The position numbers and the translations under genes are program-made. Below are positions 1-41,334 of a stretch of DNA of 64,000 bases, in pieces. The notes beneath the pieces are model-generated. The model had not been told where the DNA came from and ran no database searches. It saw only the letters and a list, made by a program, of their open reading frames with translations. Source of the DNA: Candidatus Aminicenantota bacterium (GTDB lineage Bacteria > Acidobacteriota > Aminicenantia > UBA2199); the NCBI GenBank assembly GCA_029938635.1, contig JAOZUQ010000002.1, positions 1 to 64,000 on the forward strand, written 5' to 3'. Every line of letters begins with the position of its first letter. Position 1 is the stretch's first letter.

Positions 1-309
1 AGCTTTTTTCCTTCGGAACATCGCCGCTTCGGTAAAACCGGTTCCCAGCCGCTCTTCAAGTTACAGGAGTGACTCATTGCACTCCTGCCTGATGGCTCCC
101 TGACTTTGTCAGGTCGTGAAGATCCACTTAAAGGCGGATCTTGCGTTCCCTCACAAAAAGAATGATATTTGTTGTGTTTCAGGCGTAGCCATCTATCTGC
201 TCTCGCGGGCCTGGAGGGGTGACTCGCTAATATCGTGAACCCCGAGGCCGGGCAGCGGAGACGGATGAGAACATCCGGAGCGGGAGCGAAGTGGATGATG
301 GCGAAAGCC
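1..309 (+). repeat. Structured dispersed repeat, copy 1 (possible mobile ncRNA)
   Basis: This stretch has no gene and is built of hairpins: GGAGTG/CACTCC near 65-84, CCTGAC/GTCAGG near 99-113, GATCC/GGATC near 121-140 and a perfect CGGATG-AGAA-CATCCG at 262-277. Bases 1-55 and 144-309 match 23861-23915 and 23920-24094 almost base for base. The terminal hairpin differs between the copies at paired positions and both versions still pair. The left end is probably cut by the window, because copy 2 has a further hairpin before the shared part. It resembles a large structured RNA; a HEARO/omega-RNA-like origin is a guess, and no HNH or other nuclease gene lies nearby. The strand is uncertain. Confidence 0.7.
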
Positions 310-368
310 AGAACTTGTTTTTTCCTTAAAGTACCTGTCCCCTTATATATATTTGGATCAATTTAGCG

Positions 369-23692: not shown

Positions 23693-23831
23693 AAATGAAA
23701 TGTTTCAGGGAGGAGTGGCTTTTTCCGTAATTACTTTTGGAGTTAAGGAATTTTCAAATATCATTCATTTGTTCTTTCACCACGACGCGTCTGACCAGGT
23801 ATTATTCAGCGGCATTAAAAAGCCAACTCGC

Positions 23832-24094
23832 ATGCTTCTAAAGAAGCATACTCAGACAGTAGCTTTTTTCCTTCGGAACATCGCCGCTTCGGTAAAACCG
23901 GTTCCCAGCCGCTCTGTTTCGTTCCCTCACAAAAAGAATGATATTTTACTTGTAGGGAGAGTGTCAGGCGTAGCCATCTATCTGCTCTCGTGGGCCTGGA
24001 GGGGTGACTCGCTAATATCGTGAACCCCGAGGCCGGGCAGCATAGCCGTATGAGAGCATACGGCGCGGGAGCGAAGTGGATGATGGCGAGAGCC
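23832..24094 (+). repeat. Structured dispersed repeat, copy 2 (possible mobile ncRNA)
   Basis: Second copy of the element at 1-309. Positions 23861-23915 and 23920-24094 match copy 1, but the 88-nt hairpin-rich insert of copy 1 (56-143) is replaced by four bases. A hairpin ATGCTTC-TAAA-GAAGCAT (23832-23849) lies just before the shared part. The terminal stem is CCGTATG-AGAG-CATACGG (24046-24063), against CGGATG-AGAA-CATCCG in copy 1, so base changes are compensated across the stem. The element ends about 18 nt before the -35 of the porin promoter. Confidence 0.72.
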
Positions 24095-24111
24095 GAAACG
24101 AAATGAACAAA

Positions 24112-28093: not shown

Positions 28094-28236
28094 TGGGGAC
28101 GGTCCTTTAATTTTTTAATTTTTTCCATAGCACGTAAATATATTCATACCCCATCCATTTTTGTTAACAAAAATGGAACCGTCCCCAGGAAATATTACAG
28201 GCTCATTAAAAAAATTAAAAGACCGTCCCCAAAAAA
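28094..28236. repeat. MITE/REPIN-like element with GGGGACGGTC termini
   Basis: The dpaL-PAP2 gap consists of this element. TGGGGACGGTC plus an A/T tract (28094-28124) is inverted as the same sequence at about 28204-28231. A perfect 22-nt palindrome CCATTTTTGTTAACAAAAATGG lies at 28155-28176. The segment ACCGTCCCC...TTACAGGCTCATT (from 28178) is repeated directly from 28222 with few changes, the second copy overlapping the last codons of the PAP2 gene. Confidence 0.65.
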
Positions 28237-41189: not shown

Positions 41190-41334
41190 GGGGACGGTGC
41201 TTGGAAACTTGGATACAAGGTGAACTCGACTTATCGAAGAGAAAGCAGCCTGGGCTGTGGATCAGGGGTGATGGTCACTGAGCTTGTTGAAGTGACAATG
41301 ATATAAAAAAAACATACTTCAATGCACCGTCCCC
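41190..41334. repeat. REPIN/MITE-like element with perfect 11-bp terminal inverted repeats
   Basis: GGGGACGGTGC at 41190-41200 is exactly inverted as GCACCGTCCCC at 41324-41334, giving a 145-nt element with no ORF. Inside it, GTCACT (41274) pairs with AGTGAC (41291) around GAGCTTGTTGA, a hairpin of the 'cttcracaagctcagtgac' type found as repeats in many bacterial genomes. The right terminus recurs exactly at 17108. The element sits between two divergent promoters. Confidence 0.7.

Follow-up and report, generated by a model that had tools for sequence, protein, structure and literature searches.

The beginning of this contig raises the question of what a gene-free, hairpin-rich sequence represents when it stands in two places of the window, by which we mean the whole 64,000-nucleotide stretch analysed, lying on contig C132 of a source genome of 3.05 Mb in 137 contigs. 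The original prediction for this locus was a dispersed mobile structured RNA, suspected to be related to the omega-RNAs of HEARO/IscB systems. We find that it belongs to a new element family, which matches no catalogued RNA family in Rfam. The MITE-like character of this family is well supported; the fuller account that we prefer, with somewhat better than even confidence, is that of an ORF-less MITE-like family in one Candidatus Aminicenantes family, with a fold core of ~135 nt, moved in trans and probably selected as RNA. The interiors of MITEs are commonly seen as filler, and, as far as a limited literature search allows, we know of no MITE with a fold kept by compensatory change across genera. 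Here a branched fold persists in dispersed copies in five genera despite exchanged stem letters and differing outer ends. It thereby becomes testable what a folded strand, whether RNA or DNA, does that preserves the interior of a gene-less transposon, and a new family entry could be built directly on our alignments and models.

The blocks shared by 1-309 and 23861-24094 are real and beyond chance: BLAST aligns 1-55 at 100% and 141-309 at 88% identity, a separate comparison of the two window copies gave 139 nt at 91%, and their cores, 137 nt each, agree at 125 of 137 positions (12 differences, 91%). The stretch from 1 to 309 had been treated as a single unit; instead it is a composite of the end of a 5' module, an insert, a linker and the structured core (Table 1). 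The 5' module of copy 1 is cut because the contig starts at position 1, and the element of copy 2 extends beyond 23861-24094, as its 5' module begins at 23755. Copy 1 stands upstream of a gene for a SpoU-type methyltransferase; copy 2 is flanked by a gene of the metalloenzyme superfamily on one side and a divergent alginate-export-like gene on the other. Copies on contigs C11 and C123 also contain the 85-nt insert of copy 1, and C137 has part of it; the hairpins of the insert vary in matched fashion, with GGAGTG/CACTCC in the window and GGTGTG/CACACC at locus L009.

Table 1. Parts of the two window copies and an adjoining fragment, with the evidence for each
Feature	Position	Strand	Evidence
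Copy 1 5' structured module, 3' part	1..55	+	100% identical to 23861-23915
Extra 85-nt segment with short hairpins	56..140	+	missing from copy 2
Linker, terminating in AATGATATTT, the 3' border of the 5' module	141..170	+	similarity block, module ends
Copy 1 structured core, family 1	177..313	+	R2 E 3.7e-8; R3 73.7 bits; fold z -3.56
Hairpin A, copy 1, apical motif CTCGCTAATATCG	209..253	+	MFE fold; motif recurrent in families 1-4
Hairpin B, copy 1, CGGATG-AGAA-CATCCG (hairpin of the original prediction)	262..277	+	pair 264-275 compensatory relative to copy 2
Family-2 core 3'-end fragment, 26 nt, adjoining copy 2	23715..23740	-	100% match
Copy 2 complete 5' module, inverted ends CAAATATCATT / AATGATATTT	23755..23946	+	
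Copy 2 structured core	23962..24098	+	R2 E 5.2e-6; R3 66.3 bits; fold z -3.52
Hairpin B, copy 2, GCCGTATG-AGAG-CATACGGC	24045..24064	+	fold; comparison with copy 1

Hairpin B had been singled out as a covarying stem. This was correct, and between the window copies the covariation amounts to a single double change, the one true compensatory pair being G264-C275 replaced by T-A; A261C and A279C extend the stem in copy 2. Since two copies by themselves constitute weak evidence, further copies were sought. BLAST returned 34 partial matches in the source genome, and among 41 genomes searched DNA-level matches were confined to it and two genomes of the same genus. Adjoining family-1 copies in the source genome we found a second repeat family (family 2) with the same layout and different stems. 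A covariance model trained on family 2 alone (R1) recovered nearly all family-1 copies and, over 297 genomes and under the stricter filters in force above 40 genomes, detected copies in four more genomes, all from the bacterial family of the source genome, and none beyond it. Both window copies were found by a family-2-trained model with the full fold including hairpin A (R2), whose training left out family 1 (E-values in Table 1); this full fold scored most copies from other genera higher, as at L130, which rose from 32.1 to 49.8 bits. The joint model (R3) placed the core in 8 of the 34 genomes of the bacterial family, spanning 5 genera, with 37 matches in G015, 26 in G003, 1 to 4 in the others and 29 in the source genome, the last of these bearing out the dispersed occurrence for which a genome-wide search had been suggested. 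The ORF-less, intergenic occurrence was confirmed as well, the element being short with stop codons in most frames, and no recurrent ORF was seen adjoining the copies at loci checked in G003, G009, G015 and G019. When a public genome collection was scanned by pattern, a single contig matched, from a Candidatus Aminicenantes MAG; phage and plasmid collections gave zero matches to the element, and the exact motif was absent from viral contigs.

The core folds on the plus strand into stacked closing stems that include an asymmetric internal loop, with a junction and two hairpins, A and B. An RNAalifold consensus on alignment A2 missed hairpin A and was replaced by a fold derived from per-sequence pairing probabilities. 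The internal loop of the closing stems reads GUA/GAAA in family 1 and UGA/GGAA in G003. The apex of hairpin A is TCG-nnAATAT-CGA in families 1 to 4 and differs in G003, G005 and some G015 copies; that of hairpin B is nGAGnAn, followed on its 3' side by GUAG, GUUAG or GUAAAG in most families. Families 1 and 4 have a REP-like GTAG beside the stem foot, as does part of family 2; it is missing in family 3. Several G015 cores (L207, L208, L209 and L210) have in common an insertion of ~60 nt, placed between the two hairpins, which has hairpins of its own and leaves the outer fold in place.

Compensatory changes were seen at 17 of 49 pairs in family 2 alone, at 41 of 49 in the joint alignment A4 (43 copies) and at 22 of 49 in the 22 copies of G003, which represents one other genus; the latter two counts come from model-fitted alignments, and A4 is biased towards the fold of the model. 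The covariation score was 0.414 in the joint alignment, where slid partners gave 0.06-0.10; for family 2 it was 0.221, compared with at most 0.078, and for G003 0.203, compared with at most 0.040. The signal is also visible without model fitting: plain MAFFT aligned the 22 G003 copies with one gap column, and the apical stem of hairpin A there appears as GCCTGG/CCAGGC, GCTCGG/CCGAGT, ATCCGG/CCGGAT and ACTCAG/CTGAGT. Both window cores are more stable than their dinucleotide shuffles (z-scores in Table 1). Selection on the fold is well supported by covariation, although part of this signal can also be produced when palindromes undergo templated repair.

That the element is mobile was borne out by comparison with related genomes, in that several copies are absent from the orthologous sites. 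Two sister species were searched for the flanking sequence of 14 copies, and at the sites of L003, L006, L020, L044 and L047 at least one of the two has no core: a sister species lacks it at L003, L020 and L044, the L047 site is cleanly empty, and at L006 (window copy 2) neither sister has the core, a RAYT-type palindrome or half of one standing there instead. At the L005 site G001 retains only a 25-nt remnant of both ends, and the L004 insertion is common to G002, where a RAYT palindrome later split the copy. The outer ends of the element vary from genus to genus. G015 and G019, from two genera, contain twelve complete units, mostly of 204 bp, between CC..AATYCACC and GGTGAAT..GG, the consensus of the inverted ends being CC[T/A][T/A]AAT[T/C]CACCA; 5 of the 12 have a 4-bp target duplication, where 0.18 are expected from mismatched flanks. 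In the source genus the cores are attached to a 5' module of ~190 nt, whose ends are inverted AAATATCATT repeats; the order and orientation of cores and modules vary. In the G003 copies inverted ends and target duplications were looked for and none were seen, the units ending a few bases from the core. As the ends differ between these groups and the fold is common to them, the core is the constant part and the outer ends are not, which argues that an activity of the core itself is probably under selection. The outer ends would be recognised by transposases acting in trans, which would move the element, and the core would be selected most likely as a folded RNA that aids the spread or persistence of the element. 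An autonomous partner could be missing from the assemblies, as these are fragmented at such repeats.

In 60 of 63 copies the plus strand folds with the greater stability, the mean difference being 6.2 kcal/mol; these counts are non-independent, as the copies are related. Paired cells hold 95 GU/UG as against 51 AC/CA. Both the stability bias and the G-U excess favour a single-stranded plus-strand molecule, RNA before DNA. A fold acting as single-stranded DNA, as the substrate of a structure-reading recombinase or of an HUH/Y1 transposase, is the strongest competitor, and we judge it unlikely. It would fit a strong one-strand fold without a conserved promoter (none is seen in G003, where on either side of the core conservation ends after a few bases) and an orientation without sense bias: the genes on both sides were called for 55 copies, of which 19 share the direction of the upstream gene and 23 run antisense to the two neighbours, which gives no sign of a role as sense leader or 3' UTR. 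The sharply bounded G003 units, with neither inverted ends nor detected duplications, and the RAYT-type Y1 transposase genes of G000-G002 point the same way. However, the RAYT genes examined sit inside their own GGGGACGGT/ACCGTCCCC ends, a motif distinct from the ends of the core elements, and just two cores are so bracketed; the inverted ends and 4-bp duplications of G015 and G019 are as expected from DDE enzymes, and the use of G-U favours RNA energies. A structured RNA is favoured over structured single-stranded DNA, and an RNA function of the core seems likely; of the proposed mobile structured RNA, mobility and a fold preserved by compensatory change beyond a single genus hold, and the RNA nature is favoured. 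That the core further constitutes a new class of structured non-coding RNA, a ribozyme or protein-bound scaffold selected for its own activity and riding on genus-specific non-autonomous transposon ends, is a tentative proposal in which we place rather less than even confidence. More improbable than the DNA reading is that these are ordinary MITEs with an unselected fold, whose stems are kept paired by templated repair of quasi-palindromes. Intrastrand templating is a known mutational route by which stems become perfect; conservation in G003 differs slightly between unpaired (0.86) and paired (0.83) positions, and unpaired positions are not consistently the more conserved between families. Such repair, however, leaves unexplained both the one-strand stability bias and the recurrence, in several genera, of the junction, internal loops and non-complementary apices where paired positions drop to 40-60% identity.

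An orphan omega-RNA of an IscB/HEARO- or TnpB-type system, as initially suspected, would agree with the size, the several stems, the dispersed ORF-less occurrence and the mobility, but this kinship found no support and we regard it as very improbable. The recommended Rfam cmscan, HEARO included, yielded nothing relevant: zero matches at the gathering threshold, among ribozymes and riboswitches as elsewhere; with an E cutoff of 10, six copy loci gave chance-level matches, HEARO not among them; and with an E cutoff of 1, six loci in other genera gave zero. RF02033 was absent from the source genome and likewise from the control genomes. The IscB N-terminal RRXRR domain was found in none of the eight carrier genomes, which are incomplete assemblies, nor in any control, and TnpB-type PF07282 in none of the eight as against 6 of 14 controls; nor does any ORF recur next to the copies at the loci checked. 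Least credible of all is that the cores are cargo of RAYT/REP-type palindromes: L031 and L032 alone are bracketed on both sides by RAYT-type ends, lying inside GGGGACGGTTC...GAACCGTCCCC palindromes, and RAYT genes do occur in the source genus, but nearly all other copies lack such ends on both sides, so that these were rejected as a general vehicle, and the palindromes insert independently at sister-species sites, once into a core (L035). Integron attC sites were set aside on general knowledge, the copies being dispersed and not arrayed.

The GGGGACGGT / ACCGTCCCC palindromes or their halves also occur in the window at 28095-28230, 41190-41334, 17111 and 337, and ends of this kind flank RAYT-type Y1 genes elsewhere in the genome (L065, L068 and L071). 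At L031:1100-1360 a structured core occupies the loop of a RAYT-type palindrome, as though it were cargo.

Among known systems, the element resembles bacterial MITEs such as Correia/NEMIS, ERIC and QMITE2 (PMC10969869) in being small, non-coding, intergenic and of high copy number, in the inverted ends and short target duplications of the G015/G019 type, and in that transcripts would form stable stems; it differs in a core fold kept by compensatory change across genera with differing outer ends. The BOX elements of Streptococcus (PMC3049150) are similarly modular mosaics of structured segments with a variable inter-module insert and high copy number, a likeness of layout, whereas the fold described here is supported by covariation in several genera. 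HEARO/IscB omega-RNAs (RF02033; PMC9755519) are likewise structured, mobile and dispersed, but neither an Rfam match nor an IscB/TnpB-type protein was found in the carriers. REP/BIME sequences with their RAYT (Y1) transposases compare in being palindromic, dispersed and moved in trans, with RAYT genes in the source genus, and contrast with the branched cores of ~135 nt, mostly without GGGGACGGT/ACCGTCCCC bracketing. The retrozymes of plants (PMC4918200), which contain hammerhead ribozymes, also are non-autonomous mobile elements around a structured RNA; the present element is bacterial, without a match to the hammerhead or any other Rfam ribozyme and without evidence of reverse transcription.

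Three contig ends at the same foreign sequence in family-1 copies had suggested an ORF-carrying full version of the element, which was not found. Family-1 cores of G000 are interrupted at one position by related sequence, and three contigs end there (loci L018, L019 and L027). Sequence related to the foreign sequence takes the form, in G001, of a short element beside a tRNA gene (L078:1448-1536), reading AACGATT...GATGTA after the gene and lying within a repeated T-arm segment.
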